A stretch of 43,005 nucleotides of DNA. Origin: a virus. Location of the stretch: positions 1 through 43,005 of IMG/VR virus record IMGVR_UViG_3300010401_000049; one strand, written 5' to 3'. Of this stretch, positions 6,275 to 24,524 are shown in pieces. The notes below the pieces were generated by a model. The model saw only the letters and a list, made by a program, of their open reading frames with translations, had not been told where the DNA came from and searched no databases. Position numbers and translations under genes: made by a program. Positions within the stretch are counted from its first letter, which is position 1; each line of letters begins with the position of its first letter.

Positions 6275-6748
6275 ATGAAAAGAATGTTGTTAGCCTTATT
6301 TTTTATTCTTTTGTGTCCATTAACCCTTCAAGCTAAACAAGAAATAATTAGATCCAGGGCAGATATTACTTTTGTATATCTAGGTGATTCTTTGAGCCCT
6401 GAGGGTAAAGAGACCGCCAGAAAGGCAATGCATCTATGGAATATTGCCATGGACGAAACTGTGATAGTAGAATCAGATTTTGAACATGCTAATGTATATG
6501 TCCAGGATGGTCCTGAAATGGTCTCTGTCTTCCCCCCAGGGAGAATTCTTGGGGTCACTTGGTTCCTACCGCATAATTTATCCGTTGTTGTCTTTGGGCC
6601 CAGAGACCAAAGCAAGCTCACTACGGTTATCCATGAATTTGGGCATTGTATGGGTCTAGGGCATTCGGACAAAAAAGATTCAATTATGTTTTGGAATGAG
6701 GGTAAGAATCAACACATTTTACCTGAGACGGTTCAGGCTCTAAAGTAA
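6275..6748 (+). CDS. Secreted matrixin-like zinc metalloprotease (157 aa)
   Basis: An N-terminal Sec signal peptide (residues about 1-20: basic MKR, hydrophobic core, LQA cleavage site) is followed by a compact metzincin catalytic domain. The zinc site is HEFGHCMGLGH (His120, Glu121, His124, His130) with a Met-turn at SIMFW (Met138), the matrixin/archaemetzincin-type arrangement. It probably cleaves a protein in the periplasm or outside the cell. The gene sits between two terminators with its own strong site AGGAAGG, so it is either read through at low level or has its own promoter. A second metalloprotease of the same superfamily is encoded in the early region at 22907-23488. Confidence 0.85.
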   Translation: MKRMLLALFFILLCPLTLQAKQEIIRSRADITFVYLGDSLSPEGKETARKAMHLWNIAMDETVIVESDFEHANVYVQDGPEMVSVFPPGRILGVTWFLPHNLSVVVFGPRDQSKLTTVIHEFGHCMGLGHSDKKDSIMFWNEGKNQHILPETVQALK

Positions 6749-9625: not shown

Positions 9626-11629
9626 TCAAACCCCACTAAAACTATTAGAAACTTTCATCTCAACTTCCAAGGGTACTCTTAGTTTCACAATAGTTTCCAA
9701 GACATTTTTTATAATTTGTTGATGTTTCTCAATATCAACTTTTTTAATCTGAAGAATAATCTCATCATGAACTTGATTAACATTATCATAACCTAAGGAA
9801 TCTAATTTAACCATAGCTCTTTTCATAATTGAGGCCGCCACAGATTGAATTGGGAAATTTAAACCTTGATTAATGGCATGAGAAACTTTCTTTTGAGCTT
9901 TTATGAAGGGGGTCAAGGGTTGCTTCTTTCCATCTCTAATGAAAAACCTATCTTTAGGATTCATACGATCAATTTCGTCTTGTAGTTGCCTATTAAGACT
10001 TTTATCACGAATTGTACGAGTGCGCCAGTCTAAAAGAGGTTTGATAGCAAGTTCTGGTAAACGTCTAAGACGACCAAAAGCAGATACAACCATGAGATTC
10101 TTCTCCATAAAGAGCTTTTGCTGCCTCAAATATTCTGCATAAACCTTATATAACTCAAAGAATCTTTGGTGATAAAGCTCTGCCTCCTCTATTGATATTT
10201 TTATTCCTGCATATTTAGGAGGCGGTTTACCCAATTCATCCATTAGCTTCCACGGACTCCCCCCGAAGATTAGGAGGAAGTTGCAGGTCTTGCCGATTGC
10301 TCTTTTTGGAGCTTTTAGAAATCCCATGGTTTTGGTGTGAAGGTCCTCCCCAGCTAAAATTGAATTTACCATCTCAGGATCATTGGACAAATGGGCAGCA
10401 ATTCTAAGCTCAACTTGGGAGTAATCTGCCTTTAAAAAGCAGTATTCATCAGAATCAGGAACAAATAGAGCCTTAGCAAACTCTTCTTGGTTTTGGAGAT
10501 TTGGGTCCGCCGAGCTTAGGCGTCCGGTAAGAGTTCCTTTAGCCTCATTGGTATCCTGGGGGGAGGTCTGTTTAAAACTTGAATGAATACGGCCATTCCA
10601 AAGTCTCTTTTCAAGTCCGCCTATGTCTGTACCGAGCCTTTTTTTGGTCTTGGAGTGAAGGATAATATCTTTGCAGGAATCAAGTATTCTTTGGTCAATG
10701 CCTGGGCTTTTGAGGACCGTTTTGAAAAAAGCGTCGTCACATTTCCATTGACCTTTGGCTGTTTTTGAGTTTGGAAATAATTTGGATAGGCCCAAAGTGT
10801 TGTAATATAAATCGCCAATCTGCTTAACAGAAGTCCATTCGAATTCTGGATATTTAGCATTAGCCTTTCCTCTTGGAGTTTTGAGATTATCGACCACAAT
10901 TCGGAATCGTTCATCTAAAATCTCCTTGATTTCAACTTCAAAGGTTTTACTAAGTCTTTGTAGAATTTCTTTTTGTTCTGCCTCAATCTCTTCCTTCTTT
11001 TGACCCAACAATATTTGGTCAATCTTGACTCCTCTTAGCTCCATTTTCCTTAAAACTTGATCGGTTGGAATAGACTCTTTTTCATAATAGTCTATTGGAT
11101 CTCGTTTGCACCAATCTCGCTCTTTTATAATTTTTCCCGTTTTTTGTAATCTATCTAAAAAAACATACTTGAGTTTTAAAGTATTATTAACATCTTCACA
11201 GGCATAAGCCGCAAGCAAGTCAATTGGAGCTTTATATAGGTCTTCTTTCTTAAGTTTATTTTGATCTAACCACTTCCAAATGGCCCTAGCGTGTTTAATT
11301 GAATCTGGCCCTAAATATTTATAAGCCAAGTCTTTTAACTTAAGGCTTTGATTTTCATTAACCAATTGGGCCAATAGAAGTGTGTCTTCTATGGGACCTT
11401 CAACTTCTATACTAGCTCGATGGAAAAACTTGAGATCGAAGTTGGCATTATGTAAAATTTTTGTTGTTCGCGGCTCAGACAGAATAGCCAAAATCTCTGG
11501 CTTGACCACCTCCAATTGATAATACTCAGCATTGTCTTCGCTCCAAGCTATAGCTATGCCATGAATGGAATCTGTTTTCCAATCAAGGCCAGATGTTTCG
11601 ATGTCTATAGCAATTTCGTTATACAACAT
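9626..11629 (-). CDS. DNA polymerase I-type (family A) replicative polymerase with 3'-5' exonuclease (667 aa)
   Basis: The N-terminal DEDD proofreading domain has Asp9 and Glu11 (IDIETSG), HNANFDLKF (about 60-68) and YACEDV (about 143-148). The polymerase domain has motif A KADYSQVELR (about 400), motif B KRAIGKTCNFLLIFGG (about 440-455) and motif C VHDEI (620-624). The length suits T7-like phage polymerases without a separate 5'-nuclease domain. It copies the phage genome with the helicase and ssDNA-binding protein encoded upstream in the same operon. ATG overlaps the stop of a microORF by 11 bases. All catalytic residues appear intact. Confidence 0.95.
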   Translation of the reverse strand: MLYNEIAIDIETSGLDWKTDSIHGIAIAWSEDNAEYYQLEVVKPEILAILSEPRTTKILHNANFDLKFFHRASIEVEGPIEDTLLLAQLVNENQSLKLKDLAYKYLGPDSIKHARAIWKWLDQNKLKKEDLYKAPIDLLAAYACEDVNNTLKLKYVFLDRLQKTGKIIKERDWCKRDPIDYYEKESIPTDQVLRKMELRGVKIDQILLGQKKEEIEAEQKEILQRLSKTFEVEIKEILDERFRIVVDNLKTPRGKANAKYPEFEWTSVKQIGDLYYNTLGLSKLFPNSKTAKGQWKCDDAFFKTVLKSPGIDQRILDSCKDIILHSKTKKRLGTDIGGLEKRLWNGRIHSSFKQTSPQDTNEAKGTLTGRLSSADPNLQNQEEFAKALFVPDSDEYCFLKADYSQVELRIAAHLSNDPEMVNSILAGEDLHTKTMGFLKAPKRAIGKTCNFLLIFGGSPWKLMDELGKPPPKYAGIKISIEEAELYHQRFFELYKVYAEYLRQQKLFMEKNLMVVSAFGRLRRLPELAIKPLLDWRTRTIRDKSLNRQLQDEIDRMNPKDRFFIRDGKKQPLTPFIKAQKKVSHAINQGLNFPIQSVAASIMKRAMVKLDSLGYDNVNQVHDEIILQIKKVDIEKHQQIIKNVLETIVKLRVPLEVEMKVSNSFSGV

Positions 11630-11729
11630 AAATATTAAAAAAACCAGGCTGATAAAAGGAAAAGGGAAAGATTAAGGTACTATTGATCCTATAATAATGA
11701 GATCTGTCATCAAAACACAAACTAAGCAT
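11619..11729 (-). CDS. Early-region microprotein (36 aa)
   Basis: GAGG stands six bases upstream of the ATG at 11729. The product starts MLSLCFDDRSHYY, is rich in Phe, Tyr, Ser and Asn, and ends FFNIYVV. The frame is open upstream to an ATG at 11822 (67 codons), but that part overlaps another better-looking microORF in a different frame and lacks a ribosome binding site. The stop lies inside the DNA polymerase start region. Confidence 0.5.
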   Translation of the reverse strand: MLSLCFDDRSHYYRINSTLIFPFSFYQPGFFNIYVV

Positions 11730-11844
11730 AATAAACCTCAAAACCAAAGCTCGGCTCATCGTCCCCCCAATCCCAACACAATAAAACATCCCGATGAAAG
11801 GAGTCCTACCAAAAAACATCATTTGTGTTGCTTTGTATTCTCAT
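11722..11844 (-). pseudogene. Microprotein ORF interrupted by an in-frame amber codon (40 codons plus stop)
   Basis: Reading from ATG 11844 gives MRIQSNTNDVFW, then TAG at 11808-11806, then DSFHRDVLLCWDWGDDEPSF and GFEVYYA before TAG at 11722. The segment after the amber has the Trp/Gly/Phe content and FEV ending of the other microproteins, and the full length (40 codons) is exactly typical. The terminal GAGG is the ribosome binding site for the next microORF. Either an amber mutation, readthrough, or a sequence error; an upstream in-frame ATG exists at 11889. Confidence 0.45.
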
Positions 11845-11891
11845 AATCTTTAAACCTCTAACACTTAGTATTTTTATTGGAACAGCCATAA

Positions 11892-12080
11892 TTATGAGCC
11901 CCCATGCTCATGATAACAAAATTTCTTCTGACAACTGGTGCATTCAAACCTATTGTATTGCTCTCTCTCTAAAGGCAAAAGTCTCAAAGGACTATAATAA
12001 CTATCCTGATTATTAGGATCAATCAAAACAATGCCACAATTGGGACAATACTTCGGTAAGGTTATATTACTTTTTGACAT
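11892..12080 (-). CDS. Small zinc-ribbon protein (62 aa)
   Basis: CPNC at residues 12-15 and CTSC at about 47-50 form a C4 zinc ribbon with about 31 residues between, followed by an aromatic/His tail (FCYHEH). Such small zinc ribbons are common as phage DNA- or RNA-polymerase-binding factors, but the target is unknown. ATG lies within the end of the upstream gene. Confidence 0.75.
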   Translation of the reverse strand: MSKSNITLPKYCPNCGIVLIDPNNQDSYYSPLRLLPLEREQYNRFECTSCQKKFCYHEHGGS

Positions 12081-12270
12081 GGTGCCTAATCTTTTCTGCT
12101 ATAATTTTACTACCTTCTGTCATGCCATACTTGATAAGTATGGGTTTTAAATTAAACCAAGTGATATTATCTAAAGTTTCCCCTACTTGCCACTTAGTCG
12201 GTTTTTTGTGACCAAATAAACATTTGAAGTATGAGATTTTTTTAATTGGTGTTTTGTCTTCTTCTGTCAT
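12067..12270 (-). CDS. Hypothetical early protein (67 aa)
   Basis: A basic small protein with no recognisable motif; Lys/Thr-rich N-terminus, central aromatic patch (TWFNLKPILIKYG) and a basic C-terminus ending HHVKK. It overlaps the zinc-ribbon gene downstream by 14 bases and starts three bases after the stop of the gene upstream. Confidence 0.65.
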   Translation of the reverse strand: MTEEDKTPIKKISYFKCLFGHKKPTKWQVGETLDNITWFNLKPILIKYGMTEGSKIIAEKIRHHVKK

Positions 12271-12273
12271 AAT

Positions 12274-12456
12274 TTATTCCTCACAATCATCCACAAACTC
12301 CAAATGCCCTTGAAAACTAAAACCACAACCCCTTAGAAATTCTTCAAAGTGTGGAATAATCTCTGTTAAACAATCTCTATCAAAGCTCATAGTAACTTTT
12401 GGACCTCTAATCTTATCATCTGAATAATAATAAATAAATTCAAAGTTACTTCCCAT
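12274..12456 (-). CDS. Small conserved-type phage protein (60 aa)
   Basis: The C-terminal pattern EFLRGCGFSFQGHLEFV resembles a small hypothetical protein I recall from many tailed phages, of unknown function. GGAGG lies seven bases before the ATG, inside the 3' end of the upstream 45-codon ORF, so translation is coupled. Strongly acidic C-terminus. Confidence 0.7.
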   Translation of the reverse strand: MGSNFEFIYYYSDDKIRGPKVTMSFDRDCLTEIIPHFEEFLRGCGFSFQGHLEFVDDCEE

Positions 12457-12583
12457 ATTTTGCCTCCTGCAATTCCAATATTTTCATACAAAAACCATGA
12501 GCCGCAATAGCATTATATTCATAAGTGTCATTTTTTCTAGCTAAAAACTTTAGAAACAAAATAAAGAGTCTTTCATACTTCAT
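12446..12583 (-). CDS. Small hypothetical early protein (45 aa)
   Basis: ATG overlaps the stop of the nuclease gene (ATGA). The product starts MKYERLFILFLKFLARK, looks helical, and ends LELQEAKYGK, the codons of which provide GGAGG for the next gene. Unlike the Gly/aromatic microproteins it is mainly helical and charged. Confidence 0.65.
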   Translation of the reverse strand: MKYERLFILFLKFLARKNDTYEYNAIAAHGFCMKILELQEAKYGK

Positions 12584-12903
12584 ATCAGTCCACTTTTTAT
12601 TAAGGTTATATACTCATCTGCCAACATAGTCACAAGCCAATCACCCCTATTAGTTTTATGAGCTACAATTCTAAACCTCTTATTAGGAGCATCTCTATGA
12701 GCTTGAGCTAAGGCTTTTCTTATGTTGAGGCTTTCAACACATTTAACTTCAAAATGGGTATCAGGAATGTTGTGAATAACATCAGGAGAGTCTTGGGAAC
12801 CAGAGAATTGCTGGCCTCTACGAGCTTCATAGCCTTTAGAGATTAGATAGTCTCTAAAGGCTCTTTCACCTCTGGCACCTTTATCACGGGAATTAATACT
12901 CAT
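12580..12903 (-). CDS. Hjc/PD-(D/E)XK-type nuclease, probable Holliday-junction-resolvase-like (107 aa)
   Basis: The sequence has the compact resolvase-like core: KGARGERAFRDYL with Glu13, then RRGQQFSGSQDSPDV with Asp41, and FEVKCVE with Glu52 and Lys54, followed by KALAQAHRDA and an IVAHKTNRGDWLVTM strand. This order (E, D, ExK, helix) is typical of a phage family related to archaeal Hjc. It probably resolves branched DNA during replication and recombination before packaging. ATG overlaps the upstream stop. Confidence 0.85.
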   Translation of the reverse strand: MSINSRDKGARGERAFRDYLISKGYEARRGQQFSGSQDSPDVIHNIPDTHFEVKCVESLNIRKALAQAHRDAPNKRFRIVAHKTNRGDWLVTMLADEYITLIKSGLI

Positions 12904-13103
12904 TTCTTTGCCTTAAACTTTTTAACGTACACCCAACTACCTGGTTTTATGTGGCGCCAACTTGGTGTAACTCCAAAATGATCTTCCAGAGCATGAAACA
13001 ATTCATAAAGCCTAGAAAACTCTACTCTCAGGTTTTTTAAATCACGGGATTGGGTATTAGCATCATGCTGCAACTCTTCAAATTTTTTTCTCAAACCAAA
13101 CAT
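12900..13103 (-). CDS. Hypothetical early protein (67 aa)
   Basis: The N-terminal half (residues 1-45) is amphipathic helix, probably coiled coil; the C-terminal part is basic and beta-like (GSWVYVKKFKAKK). Stop overlaps the start of the nuclease gene. No recognised family. Confidence 0.65.
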   Translation of the reverse strand: MFGLRKKFEELQHDANTQSRDLKNLRVEFSRLYELFHALEDHFGVTPSWRHIKPGSWVYVKKFKAKK

Positions 13104-13112
13104 ATTTTTCTC

Positions 13113-13373
13113 CTATGTTATATCCAAACTATTAATATACTTGTCTAGTCTCTCGATCTCCGCCCGAACTTCAGCGAGCTGTTTAAACAATCTATTATTT
13201 TCTTGGATGTGATTTTCAATATCCTTTTCCAAGTCCAGCTTGTCTTCAAAAAGCTCCTGATGACTTTCGATCAACCTATCCACATCTGCACGAATCTCCC
13301 CTGAACCTAAAGCCCAACCTTCTCGACGCTCTTGGATCTTATCAACCTCATCTTTGCTTAGGATTTTGGTCAT
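13113..13373 (-). CDS. Coiled-coil early protein (86 aa)
   Basis: Almost the whole protein is charged, heptad-like helix (residues about 28-82, rich in Glu, Leu, Lys and Asn), so it probably forms a dimeric coiled coil. ATG overlaps the stop of the 58-residue ORF upstream (TAATG). Function unknown. Confidence 0.7.
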   Translation of the reverse strand: MTKILSKDEVDKIQERREGWALGSGEIRADVDRLIESHQELFEDKLDLEKDIENHIQENNRLFKQLAEVRAEIERLDKYINSLDIT

Positions 13374-19838: not shown

Positions 19839-20891
19839 TTACTTGTATTCTATAACATATTTTTGCGTTGGAAGTATAGACTTATTGTGACCCGTAAACA
19901 AGTATATGTATTGGACTCTATTAGACTTTTTAATCCATTCCCCTTCACCATCAGTGAACCACACGACAGCATCAAAATTACCTTTTTCAACTAAGACTTG
20001 AGGTTCTTTAAAGCTTGTCCCTCCCCCCCATTCTTTGCAGGTTGGCTTTTTACCTACGTGCCTAATTCCGTCATCAAACTCAATAACAGTAGCTTCATAT
20101 TCCTTGAGCATTCGGCGCACTAGACCATAATACTGCTTTTGCTGTTCTCCCGTGGTGCTTCCGGAGCAATCAATACAAAAAGCTAGCTTAGGCCCTTTGA
20201 TTCTCTTCCTTCCTGGGGTGCCATCATCTTTCCACCTATGAGGCTTTGAGAACGTTAAGGCCTTTTCAAAGCGATTGTGGCAGCTTTGTTGAATATTCCG
20301 TTCTAATGCCGCTGTAAGCCCTCTGGGAATTCTTTTTATCTCTTTAGGCTTGGTGTTTACGGGCTCTTTTTGACCTGTTCCAGCCCTAAAGCCTCTTTTC
20401 TCCATTTCTTCTTTAAGAACCCTGCTTAATTGTTTCTTTTCTTCTTCCGTAAGGCCCATAGAGCAAAGGCTTTGTTGCTGTTCAATGTCCTTTGGGAGCT
20501 TATCTAAGTACCAATTCCAGGTTTGCTTAGGGGGGAGTCCGAAGGCCTCAGGGAAAGCAAAGGGCTCTCGTTTTAGTGTCGGTATGAAAGAATTAATCTC
20601 ACAGTCACAAGCGATATTGAGTCTTTTAGGGTCTAATTCCTTATCTTTATTTAATTCTAAGTGATTAAAGAGGTAATGATAAAGCTCATGGATGCCAACA
20701 GTTTTAATATCTACACCCTGCTTTTCAACCTCCAGCAATTTAGGTTCGGAAAATAAAATTAATATCTTTCCGCAGCTTGTCACTGCCGAAGCTGCAGGCG
20801 CAGGAAGGTTTTCAATTTCTTGAATAATAACCCTTTTTCGCAAATGAATTGGAAAGGCCTTTAGAAGTTGTTCTTTTATGGGAGTATGCAT
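19839..20891 (-). CDS. DUF2201-like metallopeptidase / VWA protein, partner of MoxR ATPase (350 aa)
   Basis: The N-terminal part has a zinc-peptidase-like motif IHELYHYLFNH (His68, Glu69, His72) followed by NIACDCEIN (95-100), as in the DUF2201 putative metallopeptidase domain. The C-terminal part is a VWA-like domain with an intact MIDAS: DCSGS (Asp241, Ser243, Ser245), Thr292 in GGGTSF and Asp314 in FTDGEG. A Lys-rich helical linker (about 145-230) joins them. Bacterial homologues are encoded next to MoxR-type AAA+ ATPases and form remodelling complexes. Here the MoxR-like gene lies just upstream in the same operon. Confidence 0.85.
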   Translation of the reverse strand: MHTPIKEQLLKAFPIHLRKRVIIQEIENLPAPAASAVTSCGKILILFSEPKLLEVEKQGVDIKTVGIHELYHYLFNHLELNKDKELDPKRLNIACDCEINSFIPTLKREPFAFPEAFGLPPKQTWNWYLDKLPKDIEQQQSLCSMGLTEEEKKQLSRVLKEEMEKRGFRAGTGQKEPVNTKPKEIKRIPRGLTAALERNIQQSCHNRFEKALTFSKPHRWKDDGTPGRKRIKGPKLAFCIDCSGSTTGEQQKQYYGLVRRMLKEYEATVIEFDDGIRHVGKKPTCKEWGGGTSFKEPQVLVEKGNFDAVVWFTDGEGEWIKKSNRVQYIYLFTGHNKSILPTQKYVIEYK

Positions 20892-20912
20892 GGCTTAAAA
20901 AATCCTTTCATA

Positions 20913-21014
20913 TTAAAAACTCCGTTTACAAAGGCGTGGAAACCAAAAAGAGACCCCGCCATGAAGTGGTTTGATTTGTAGATATTGAAAAAGATTCCTA
21001 AGACTCTCTAGAAT
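20913..21014 (-). CDS. Possible microprotein with ATT start (33 aa)
   Basis: AAGGA stands six bases before an ATT that opens 33 codons ending GGVSFWFPRLCKRSF. Composition resembles the microproteins, and the ORF lies in the gap before the VWA gene. It overlaps a weak terminator-like hairpin and has no standard start, so this is a low-confidence call. Confidence 0.25.
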   Translation of the reverse strand: MLESLRNLFQYLQIKPLHGGVSFWFPRLCKRSF

Positions 21015-21018
21015 CTTT
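20986..21018 (-). terminator. Possible weak terminator between MoxR-like and VWA genes
   Basis: AAAGATTC (- strand 21018-21011) pairs with GAATCTTT (20997-20990), followed by T-rich sequence. The stem is only eight pairs and AT-rich, so termination would be partial at best. Confidence 0.35.
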
Positions 21019-21045
21019 TATCCTTATTTTGTCCAAGGTGCAGTC

Positions 21046-21171
21046 TTAGCATAAAATTATCTCTAGTTTTATTCTTTTCGTACGAAAACACGATCCCAAA
21101 CAAAAATAAAATTCAATTGGAGGACCGCGATAGCCAAACTGGGATACTGAAAGGTATGAATATATTATCAT
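21046..21171 (-). CDS. Early-region microprotein (41 aa)
   Basis: ATG overlaps the stop of the MoxR-like gene (ATGA). The product starts MIIYSYLSVSQFGYRGPP, has EFYFCLGSCF and ends KLEIILC. Encoded between the MoxR-like and VWA genes, with one further uncertain ORF. Confidence 0.6.
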   Translation of the reverse strand: MIIYSYLSVSQFGYRGPPIEFYFCLGSCFRTKRIKLEIILC

Positions 21172-21950
21172 TCCAAATACTTGTCCAAAAGACTAGCAAC
21201 ATGTTCGATCTTGATAGTCATTTCTTCAAAGATTTGTTGTTTCTCACCCTTCTTTCGCATGTAAGGTGCGGCGTGCTCTCCAAGAGCAAATTTCATAATT
21301 TCGTTGTGCTCAGTGTTGGGTAAGTTCACATCATAAACAAGTTGCAAATACTCTAAGAATCTTGGATCCGGTCTCTTAAGGTGCCAGGTCAATTCCTCAT
21401 TCAAAGTCTCTGGAAATTTTTGGATATAAGCCGCCATTTTATCATACTTTTTTTCATTAGCCCAACCAATCAATTGCTCTTGATCTGTCTCAACTGGAAT
21501 AGGAACAATACGAGTTTTGAAAGCCTTGTCACCTTCCAAGGTTTCATAGTTCTCACTTTCGTCATTCATTGTGAGAAGGATAATAGTGTCTTTATGAATT
21601 GGTTCACCCCCGACTGTACGTTCCCCAATAAGCTCCATGACTGCAGCTCTTGTATATCGTTCCATACGGTTAAACTCGTCTATATAAATAAGAGCTTTGG
21701 TCTTAATGGCCCTCCTAAGTCGCTCATGAGCCACAAACGATACTTCATCTCGTTTGGCATTAGGTAAGTTAAGTCCCATAGCATCTTCGGTCCTGAGAGG
21801 AAGGTAGATAAAATCATAATTTAATTCCTCATGAATCTTTTTAGCCATTGTAGTTTTTCCAATTCCAGAACCCCCGACCCAACAAATTGGAATTTTAGGT
21901 TTGGACTTGAAGATTTGAATTGTTACTTGTTTTGCTTTTTCAATATTCAT
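21168..21950 (-). CDS. MoxR-type AAA+ ATPase (260 aa)
   Basis: Walker A is GGSGIGKT (26-33), Walker B LIYIDEFNR (87-95), sensor 1 TMND (127-130) and a likely arginine finger in KTRIVP (Arg147). The FIYLPLRTEDAMGL segment and ERLRRAIKTKALIYIDEFNR are typical of MoxR/RavA-like ATPases, which act as chaperones with VWA-domain partners. The DUF2201/VWA gene is next but for one or two microORFs. Probably loads, activates or dismantles a protein complex early in infection. The start ATG follows a microORF with AAGGAAAAAC in between. Confidence 0.88.
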   Translation of the reverse strand: MNIEKAKQVTIQIFKSKPKIPICWVGGSGIGKTTMAKKIHEELNYDFIYLPLRTEDAMGLNLPNAKRDEVSFVAHERLRRAIKTKALIYIDEFNRMERYTRAAVMELIGERTVGGEPIHKDTIILLTMNDESENYETLEGDKAFKTRIVPIPVETDQEQLIGWANEKKYDKMAAYIQKFPETLNEELTWHLKRPDPRFLEYLQLVYDVNLPNTEHNEIMKFALGEHAAPYMRKKGEKQQIFEEMTIKIEHVASLLDKYLE

Positions 21951-21959
21951 TGTTTTTCC

Positions 21960-22106
21960 TTAAATAAAGATTTGTTGAAGTCTAATATATCCGCGACCAA
22001 ATTGGCCTATAAAAAAAGAATGCAAAAATTCAGCAATTAATGGATTTCTGGGGTATCCAAGTCCATATCCATATGGATCTTTATTCGTTTTAACTCGTAT
22101 TTTCAT
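21960..22106 (-). CDS. Early-region microprotein (48 aa)
   Basis: ATG overlaps the previous microORF stop (ATGA). The product starts MKIRVKTNKDPYGYGLGYPR, contains FFIGQFGRGYIRL and ends QQIFI. Strongly basic and Gly/Tyr-rich. The stop is ten bases before the MoxR-like ATG. Confidence 0.65.
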   Translation of the reverse strand: MKIRVKTNKDPYGYGLGYPRNPLIAEFLHSFFIGQFGRGYIRLQQIFI

Positions 22107-22237
22107 ATAAGCCTTATTTTAAACCCTTTGTTATAGTGTGGATTAAAATAATTTAAAACATGGAAGGAGTTTTTAATTCCGTTTATAGAGTATTCTTGTC
22201 TATAACCAAAACCTCGACGTCCAAAAGTTATTTGCAT
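22103..22237 (-). CDS. Early-region microprotein (44 aa)
   Basis: ATG overlaps the upstream stop (TGATG). The product starts MQITFGRRGFGYRQEYSING and ends GFKIRLI; basic, Gly/Tyr/Asn-rich. Shares MQITF with an internal segment of the microprotein at 6824-6955. Confidence 0.65.
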   Translation of the reverse strand: MQITFGRRGFGYRQEYSINGIKNSFHVLNYFNPHYNKGFKIRLI

Positions 22238-22593
22238 CAAACCTCCTTTGGAAAGTACAATTTATTTTCTTGAAGACTCTTAGGCCCATTAATATTTCTA
22301 AGGGCTGTTAAAATCTTTAATGCTTCTTTAAAAATTTCCTCTTGTTTGCCATCATACTCAATATTTGGAAGAGATTTCCAAAGTGAAATAATTTGTTCTG
22401 GCTCTGGGATTAAATGGCACATAAAAATACCAGTATACCAAGACTTTTCTTCTGGCTTACCTGATAATTCAGAAAAGCTTTTGAACTCCTCTACCAAATG
22501 CAGTCTTAGCAATTCTAAACAATAAGCTTGATTTTCAGCATTAGAAAGCTCTGCAAAGCTTTTGCCTTTTAGGTCTTTATTCTTCTTTATCAT
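22237..22593 (-). CDS. Hypothetical helical early protein (118 aa)
   Basis: Charged helical protein with no clear domain; contains WYTGIFMCHLIPEPEQI. ATG lies 17 bases inside the upstream 45-residue ORF. Function unknown. Confidence 0.7.
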   Translation of the reverse strand: MIKKNKDLKGKSFAELSNAENQAYCLELLRLHLVEEFKSFSELSGKPEEKSWYTGIFMCHLIPEPEQIISLWKSLPNIEYDGKQEEIFKEALKILTALRNINGPKSLQENKLYFPKEV

Positions 22594-22714: not shown

Positions 22715-22907
22715 TAATTAGCTCCTCCAATACTTTCATAACTTCAAATTTATTGATACTAGCCCAATTTTTACGTAAAGGCATATTTTTTTGATACCGA
22801 AGTAAAAGCTCCTTTTGTCCTAAGATTTTTCCATGTCTATAATTATCCTTATGAGTACCAAGACCCTTAAGGAATTCTATTTCTGTGTGCGTGGTCCAGT
22901 TGTCCAT
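22704..22907 (-). CDS. Small conserved-type phage protein (67 aa)
   Basis: The pattern W-T-x-H-T-E-IEFLKGLGTH, KELLLRYQKNM and LRKNWASI resembles a small phage hypothetical family I recall, of unknown function. ATG abuts the metalloprotease gene stop and it ends inside the next ORF. Confidence 0.75.
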   Translation of the reverse strand: MDNWTTHTEIEFLKGLGTHKDNYRHGKILGQKELLLRYQKNMPLRKNWASINKFEVMKVLEELINGS

Positions 22908-23488
22908 TAATCCTCCAAGTTTTCATTTACAAGTTGAATCATTTCATCAGTAATGTTTGAATTAGAATATGTGGGGACGTGCATAACTGATTTAATGTTC
23001 TCAGTATCATGCCAAAGCCCTAAGCAGTGTCCTTCCTCGTGTGCCCAAACCGCCCAAGAACCATCTACTCCTAGAACACTAAAAGGAATAGAGCCATCAT
23101 TATTTAAAGCATTTTTATCAATCAAAATGCTACAGCCGCAACTTCCATCTCTAGGTTTACTTGTGATGCCTGTTCCCCATTCTTCTAACCCTTCTGAATC
23201 TTCAGTAATAGAAAGATTTACTATATTTTCATCGCCCCCAATTTGAAAGATCCCAAAGCCCAGTGCACTATTCCATTGTTGGACAGAATAATCTAAGTCT
23301 CGATTGGCTTGATCTATCTCTTCCTGAGTAAAACTATCAGGATAGGTTGCAATAATACTTTGTACTCGACAAGCCTTTGCTCCTTCTAAGTAAGTTTGTG
23401 CCTCTAAGCCAACAGAACCACAACCATTCAAAGCAGCCAGAAACAAAAGAAAAATGTAAAGTATCAAGCCTAAAAAAAGTTTTTTCAT
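22907..23488 (-). CDS. Lipoprotein matrixin-like zinc metalloprotease (193 aa)
   Basis: A lipoprotein signal peptide (MKK, then about 18 hydrophobic residues, LNGC with Cys23 as acylation site) precedes a metzincin domain. The zinc site is HEEGHCLGLWH (His150, Glu151, His154, His160) with a Met-turn SVMHVP (Met169). It should be anchored in the cell envelope, facing the periplasm or exterior. Early expression suggests action on a host envelope protein, for instance to block superinfection, but that is inference. The late protease at 6275-6748 has the same fold without a lipid anchor. Confidence 0.85.
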   Translation of the reverse strand: MKKLFLGLILYIFLLFLAALNGCGSVGLEAQTYLEGAKACRVQSIIATYPDSFTQEEIDQANRDLDYSVQQWNSALGFGIFQIGGDENIVNLSITEDSEGLEEWGTGITSKPRDGSCGCSILIDKNALNNDGSIPFSVLGVDGSWAVWAHEEGHCLGLWHDTENIKSVMHVPTYSNSNITDEMIQLVNENLED

Positions 23489-24149: not shown

Positions 24150-24524
24150 TTATCTCCTCGTGACTCTATAGACTTCTTGGGTTAATTGCCCAACGGCTGT
24201 AGCCAAAGTTTCTTCTTGGTCTTTTTGTGGTAACTTCATTTCGTCAACAAGACACCAAGCCGCGTGGGTGCACTCATGTGAGACCGTCAGTACATCTTTA
24301 TTATATAAAGCAATCAGAAGGCTTACTCTTTGGTCTCCAACCATCATTCTGTGAGGAGCACAAAAGCCACCGGTGTTTTTTATATTGATTTTTTGTTTCT
24401 TTGTGCTCACCAATTGTTTCTTAATCTTTTTATGCATTTCTTCATATTCTTTAATGTCTTTGAAGTTGTAAAGAACACAAATTCGCTTTTTGACTCCATC
24501 AAGGTAAATGTATTTTGTTTGCAT
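24150..24524 (-). CDS. HExxH zincin-like metallopeptidase (124 aa)
   Basis: The motif HECTH (83-87) follows a hydrophobic strand (VSLLIALYNKDVLTVS), and Glu104/Glu105 about 20 residues later in QKDQEETLATA could be the third zinc ligand, as in gluzincin-like phage peptidases. The protein has no signal peptide, so it acts inside the cell. Substrate unknown. Overlaps the end of the amber-containing small ORF upstream. Confidence 0.6.
   Translation of the reverse strand: MQTKYIYLDGVKKRICVLYNFKDIKEYEEMHKKIKKQLVSTKKQKINIKNTGGFCAPHRMMVGDQRVSLLIALYNKDVLTVSHECTHAAWCLVDEMKLPQKDQEETLATAVGQLTQEVYRVTRR

Follow-up and report, generated by a model that had tools for sequence, protein, structure and literature searches.

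Three bacterial systems, NorQ-NorD, CbbQ-CbbO and RavA-ViaA, pair a MoxR-clade ATPase with a VWA partner, as does the locus described here, and function in metal insertion or enzyme activation; to our knowledge, none of their VWA partners carries a zincin domain. In NorQD, the VWA domain inserts a finger into the ring pore and binds the ring with its C-terminus; ATP hydrolysis has been proposed to make the NorD linker twist and stretch (PMC13036017). Among phages, the N4-like group has 14 core genes, gp24 and gp25 among them (PMC4193335), and group 2.2 jumbo phages were reported in 2021 to have a MoxR/vWA pair that includes an N-terminal metallopeptidase (PMC7824862).

The DNA analysed here (the window) comprises the 43,005 bases of the IMG/VR virus record IMGVR_UViG_3300010401_000049. 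A first-pass annotation had noticed in it a gene for a MoxR ATPase with a metallopeptidase-VWA partner gene and had not recognised the two as a characterised system. This last point needs correction, since N4-like phages have the pair among their core genes, phage AR9 carries it under a zincin-vWA annotation, and the jumbo-phage description of 2021 covered it. The window adds a divergent, compact new member to a phage gene pair that is already known and widespread.

The two window genes and their motifs

The ATPase gene comes first, and the partner gene lies 276 bp downstream on the same minus strand. Both ORFs are complete with the boundaries given in Table 1, each with a plausible Shine-Dalgarno sequence (aaggaaaaacaATG for the ATPase and aaaggattttttaagccATG for the partner). 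As the first-pass annotation had read them, both proteins proved intact in the ORFs and alignments, with Walker A, Walker B and sensor 1 in the one and HELYH plus a full MIDAS in the other.

Table 1. Positions in the window of the gene pair, its motifs and two micro-ORFs.
Feature	Position	Strand	Remark
MoxR-clade AAA+ ATPase	21168..21950	-	260 aa; N4 gp24 / PHROG 1297 family
ATPase Walker A, GGSGIGKT, residues 26-33	21852..21875	-	alignment, motif scan
ATPase helix-2 insert region (approximate; conserved GLP...F)	21726..21779	-	alignments
ATPase Walker B, LIYIDE, residues 87-92	21675..21692	-	alignments
ATPase sensor 1, Asn129	21564..21566	-	alignments
ATPase arginine finger, Arg147	21510..21512	-	invariant in alignments A2 and A4
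ATPase sensor 2, Arg197	21360..21362	-	invariant in alignments A2 and A4
DUF2201-type protein (partner)	19839..20891	-	350 aa; N4 gp25 / PHROG 1314 family
Partner HELYH, residues 68-72, zincin metal-binding/catalytic motif	20676..20690	-	alignments
Partner NIACDCEIN, residues 92-100	20592..20618	-	N92, D96 and N100 invariant in alignments A1 and A3
Partner MIDAS motif 1, DCSGS, residues 241-245 (D241, S243, S245)	20157..20171	-	alignments
Partner MIDAS Thr292 in GGT, residues 290-292	20016..20024	-	alignments
Partner MIDAS Asp314 in FTD, residues 312-314	19950..19958	-	alignments
41-aa micro-ORF	21046..21171	-	overlaps ATPase stop (ATGA)
44-45-aa ORF	22103-22240	-	strong Shine-Dalgarno (aaaggaggt); glycine/aromatic-rich start

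Judged by its motifs, the upstream protein belongs to the MoxR clade, with Walker A and B, sensor 1, arginine finger and sensor 2 all intact. It matched PHROG 1297 over residues 1-197 (E = 2e-25), and tblastn searches with it retrieved the ATPases of N4-like and AR9-like phages, Thermus phage phiFa and Roseobacter phage CRP-7. A profile built from the phage ATPases had Midasin as its best match and matched NorQ too. The motif set arose by chance in 5 of 200,000 composition-preserving shuffles. The protein is the shortest uninterrupted ATPase among those compared, the others measuring about 335-500 aa.

Structure models of both proteins were built as single chains from alignments of 10-11 rows. 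The ATPase model had a mean pLDDT of 65, with about 80-90 in the core, and among solved structures it retrieved the NorQ hexamer first, the complex of NorQ with the NorD VWA domain second and CbbQ close after; its TM-scores of 0.5-0.6 support the class and not the details. The conserved GLP...F stretch stands at the place expected for the helix-2 insert, and residues 54-73 of the model have pLDDT values below 50. By analogy with NorQ (PMC13036017), this region may form the contact to the VWA partner.

The downstream protein is laid out as an N-terminal zincin-like domain, a linker and a C-terminal VWA domain. Its alignment contains 20 invariant columns, including H68, E69, H72, D96, D241, S243, S245, T292 and D314, and its motif set was reproduced in 0 of 200,000 composition-preserving shuffles. 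HELYH falls on a helix predicted, with low confidence, at residues 62-75. A conserved NxxxDxxxN follows 20 residues past HELYH, and D96 within it is a candidate third metal ligand, as suggested by its invariance and by the order of the helices, the next of which is predicted at residues 88-102. Peptidase activity is probable for this zincin-type head.

The partner matched PHROG 1314 over residues 61-338 (E = 4.5e-23), and PBS1/AR9 and N4 gp25-like proteins came first in tblastn searches (1e-5 to 2e-4). The Pfam models DUF2201_N and DUF2201 scored under their gathering cut-offs in the window protein (21.7 versus 23.2 and 22.5 versus 26.4 bits), so its DUF2201 homology rests on PHROG 1314 and on the alignment with N4 gp25, which itself matched the two models with E values of 3e-87 and 1e-46. 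The model of the partner was poor (mean pLDDT 50.6). Its VWA half is usable and matches VWA domains; the zincin fold was not assignable from it in the search of solved structures, and no NorD-like finger insertion was identified in the partner. In BFVD, the model matched phage metallopeptidase/VWA-like proteins, with ORF892 (p892) of Acidianus two-tailed virus (ATV) lower down.

PHROG 1314 and many RefSeq phage records (NC_008720, NC_013691, NC_049380 and others) carry a different description of the partner, namely an HNH endonuclease, and the label is attached to the whole zincin-VWA family, N4 gp25 (11164-12306 of its locus) included. We give this description next to no chance and rejected it: Pfam returns DUF2201_N, DUF2201 and related M48/VWA models for the family and no HNH domain, and the motifs present are those of a zincin and a MIDAS. 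The tag, widely copied through RefSeq and PHROG, is unsupported for this family.

Other metallopeptidase-like ORFs were seen in the window. Those at 6275-6748 (plus strand) and 22907-23488 (minus strand) encode small metzincin-type metallopeptidases with signal-peptide- or lipoprotein-like N-termini. The former contains HEFGHCMGLGH and matched Pfam M10 matrixin (E = 1.6e-7); the latter contains HEEGHCLGLWHD, gave weak M12/M10 matches and had no match among 50,697 phage records. For a 43-kb phage, secreted metzincins seem out of the ordinary; they may give a clue to the host, or to envelope cleavage. A zincin-like protein with HECTH (24150-24524, minus strand) belongs to PHROG 1365, of unknown function, and is encoded in the same minus-strand block as the pair.

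The micro-ORFs placed between the two genes by the first-pass annotation are so placed in one case, that of 21046-21171; the other two, 21960-22106 and 22103-22240, lie upstream of the ATPase gene. The 21046-21171 ORF has a weak ribosome-binding site and a GC content by codon position of 0.31/0.38/0.26, compared with 0.49/0.31-0.36/0.36-0.38 in the two genes, and it showed no similarity to anything tested. The 22103-22240 ORF, with its start near 22237, may be translated into a real small protein. Similarity of the window micro-ORFs to one another was at chance level.

Occurrence of the pair across phages

The identities and the pairing read from the window in the first pass were borne out by homology. 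N4 gp24 and gp25 match PHROG 1297 and PHROG 1314, the families of the window pair (E near 1e-136), and by sequence the window genes are a pair of the N4 gp24/gp25 type. Among the 50,697 phage records, N4 gp24 matched 821 and N4 gp25 matched 669.

Pairing was followed in 23 loci, the window and 22 phages, a hand-picked sample and no census. The set comprises Schitoviridae of many hosts, AR9/PBS1, MIJ3, Atu_ph07, a jumbo coliphage, the V5-like MaxTheCat, cyanophage S-TIM5, Thermus phage phiFa, CRP-7 and a 595-kb uncultured phage; pVa5, found via its ATPase, was kept outside the set, the flank fetched being too short to judge. The profiles used for finding ORFs had been built with the window and five or six of these phages included, so that the scores of those members are meaningless; the remaining phages are independent. 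Since the loci were picked through one partner, presence of the other counts as a test. Both genes were present in all 23 loci, from very different phages, which is the co-conservation that the first-pass annotation had put forward as its main test. They lay on the same strand in 22 of them, with MaxTheCat having the pair on opposite strands, and the gap was less than 600 bp in most; in VBP47 and Vibrio 1.152.O, the two genes are about 5-6 kb apart. The ATPase of JSF3 is interrupted by annotated homing-endonuclease genes and lacks its N-terminal columns on account of this split. Besides belonging to the core genes of a large phage family, the pair turns up again in jumbo, V5-like, cyano- and Thermus phages.

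Searches of the viral-contig and genome-contig collections gave no close relatives of either window protein, and the terminase, used as bait in the viral-contig collection, gave none either. The nearest record by terminase was MW202801 (34% identical), and a profile search through its whole 40 kb found homologues of neither gene; the pair is thus accessory at that distance.

Some neighbouring genes of the pair have labels of their own. In Salmonella phage FSL SP-058, two genes just downstream of the pair (10843-13332 of its locus) bear ClpX-like and FtsH-like COG notes. In ZX86, the gene directly upstream of the pair (1124-1879 of its locus) is labelled a ClpP-like protease, and its sequence is AAA+ ATPase-like.

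Genes situated between the pair in other phages showed no common family, except for one match between VBP47 and Vibrio 1.152.O, which have a homing-endonuclease-like gene in common at this place. When the window micro-ORFs were compared with these intervening genes, the best E was 0.03 over 19 residues. We rejected the micro-ORFs as a third component because the intervening genes of other phages have no family in common, and a role for them is not supported, no convincing similarity to genes between or beside the pair elsewhere having been found. The third gene also matters for a reading of the locus as a MoxR-vWA ternary conflict (defence-type) system, with which it has the MoxR-vWA core in common. 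This we regard as very improbable: VMAP, inactive STAND, FtsH and beta-propeller proteins were not seen among the neighbouring proteins scanned, PADLOC left the VWA protein unmatched and gave the ATPase weak AAA-domain matches only, and no conserved third gene stands between the pair. The PADLOC result and the missing third component led us to reject a defence system.

Conservation and loss of the catalytic residues

Loss of catalytic residues in relatives, a point raised in the first pass, was found for the zincin site and not for the MIDAS. The DxSxS, the Thr (GT) and the [TS]D of the MIDAS are kept in 23 of 23 loci, and HExxH is kept in 21 of 23. Atu_ph07 has HQILH, in which Glu is replaced by Gln while both His and the Asp are retained; its relative Phosso (49% identical) keeps HEVLH. 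In OLIVR1, both His, the Glu and the Asp of the zincin site are all gone, and its relative ZX86 (55%) has HMLWH, with both His and the Asp kept and the Glu lost. The ATPases of OLIVR1 and ZX86 have the Walker B Asp changed to Ser (LSEFN), and that of OLIVR1 also has sensor 2 Arg changed to Gly, the sole loss of this Arg among the 23 loci. The alignments thus place the loss of the zincin Glu at least twice, once alongside a Walker B change. That this change coincides with loss of the Glu in OLIVR1 and ZX86, with the MIDAS kept, makes theirs a natural dead or altered pair. The coincidence also gives a hint that the ATPase function and the zincin function go hand in hand, though a single clade is not enough for a claim of coupling. 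The natural losses of the Glu also point out the residues to separate.

Given the loss in two lineages, we consider cleavage of a target probable for the window pair and not needed in every phage. ATP-driven delivery of a target to a protease-like site, as the first-pass annotation had suggested, is weakened as a general mechanism by these two lineages, which keep the pair and the MIDAS without the zincin Glu. Such retention, with both His and the Asp still present in Atu_ph07 and ZX86, would also fit a non-proteolytic remodeller or metal-insertion factor. Here the zincin-like site would serve only for metal binding or for structure, and the pair would activate a complex or a metalloenzyme in the manner of NorQD, CoxDE and CbbQO. 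The reviewed MoxR/VWA pairs mostly do assembly, activation and metal insertion (PMC7159879), and NorQD does likewise (PMC13036017). However, every other aligned lineage, at about 20-25% identity to the window protein, retains the Glu together with the complete HExxH...D set; a need for the fold alone would hardly account for this. Nor is a phage metalloenzyme client evident. We therefore consider a purely non-proteolytic role unlikely.

Timing, proposed mechanism and comparison with known systems

The N4 gp24/gp25 transcripts are middle (PMC4193335), and the annotation of AR9 places an early promoter immediately before g028; this annotation alone was used, as g028/g029 are not named in the AR9 transcription paper. 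The window pair lies in a minus-strand block with genes for a DNA polymerase, a DnaB/RecA-like ATPase and a RusA-like resolvase, and the terminase, portal and capsid genes of the window are on the plus strand, opposite to the pair. These three lines argue for action before late assembly. They also count against a machine for virion assembly or maturation, in which a chaperone/co-chaperone pair would aid assembly and cleave structural proteins. Such a role was proposed for jumbo phages by Iyer and colleagues, who suggested that pairs of this architecture act in virion assembly with peptidolytic processing (PMC7824862). In ATV, the MoxR protein p618 is a virion protein, and p618 and its VWA partner p892 were assigned a chaperone role in tail development; RPP1 has a second virion gene set near its gp24/25 homologues (PMC4193335). 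One peptide from a related MoxR-like ATPase, detected in virions of the Staphylococcus phage DC4 by authors who ask for confirmation, likewise points to assembly or packaging and counts against early-to-middle action. In addition to the timing, however, virion proteins of AR9 come from late genes in 41 of 43 cases (PMC5312081) and the ATV system is without a peptidase domain (PMC7824862). On balance, an assembly or maturation machine appears rather unlikely.

A search of the literature found no biochemistry or function-revealing experiment for any phage member of the zincin-VWA architecture, and the CRISPRi-ART paper contained no N4 data. We propose that the pair consists of a MoxR ring and a VWA co-chaperone with a zincin head, which would work in a NorQD-like manner on an early-to-middle target; we put the probability of this whole proposal at roughly 0.5. 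The ATPase would form a ring, expected to be a hexamer. The VWA part would dock on this ring, with the MIDAS taking part in binding, as in NorQ-NorD. ATP hydrolysis by the ring might, by the same analogy, turn or stretch the linker to the head, and this movement would open the metallopeptidase site or load it on a bound target protein. The target would be remodelled and, in most lineages including the window, probably clipped; clipping would not be obligatory, considering the Glu losses in Atu_ph07, ZX86 and OLIVR1. Action would fall in the early-to-middle phase alongside the replication genes, and not solely in late virion assembly.

In a more specific form, the pair would be an ATP-gated metalloprotease, its MoxR ring driving the zincin carried by the VWA protein to cut a protein of the host or the phage in the early-to-middle phase; OLIVR1/ZX86 and Atu_ph07 would have non-cleaving versions. 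We offer this form tentatively, as a possibility somewhat short of even odds; we know of no MoxR/VWA system for which such action is known.

Compared with the closest known pair, N4 gp24/gp25, the window has the same order, with the ATPase upstream and the zincin-VWA protein downstream on one strand, the same motif set and the PHROGs in common. It differs in that the proteins are about 20% identical to those of N4, the ATPase is about 90 aa shorter than gp24, mostly at the C-terminus, and the 43-kb genome is podovirus-like, with no N4-type RNA polymerase gene noticed. AR9 g028/g029 and PBS1 213/214 resemble the window as adjoining genes for an AAA ATPase and a 'zincin-like protease fused to vWA domain', the PBS1/AR9 partners counting among the top tblastn hits for the window partner; these are jumbo phages, however, and both proteins are longer than those of the window (ATPase 399 aa, partner 474 aa). 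The pair of group 2.2 jumbo phages has the domain architecture of the window pair and was published for jumbo phages only, whereas the window genome is small. The ATV proteins p618 and p892 are likewise a viral MoxR ATPase and a VWA protein, and were shown to interact; unlike the window pair, they belong to an archaeal virus and are without a metallopeptidase domain. NorQD and the phage pair have their two engine parts in common, and in the phage pair a zincin-like head replaces the N-terminal part of NorD.
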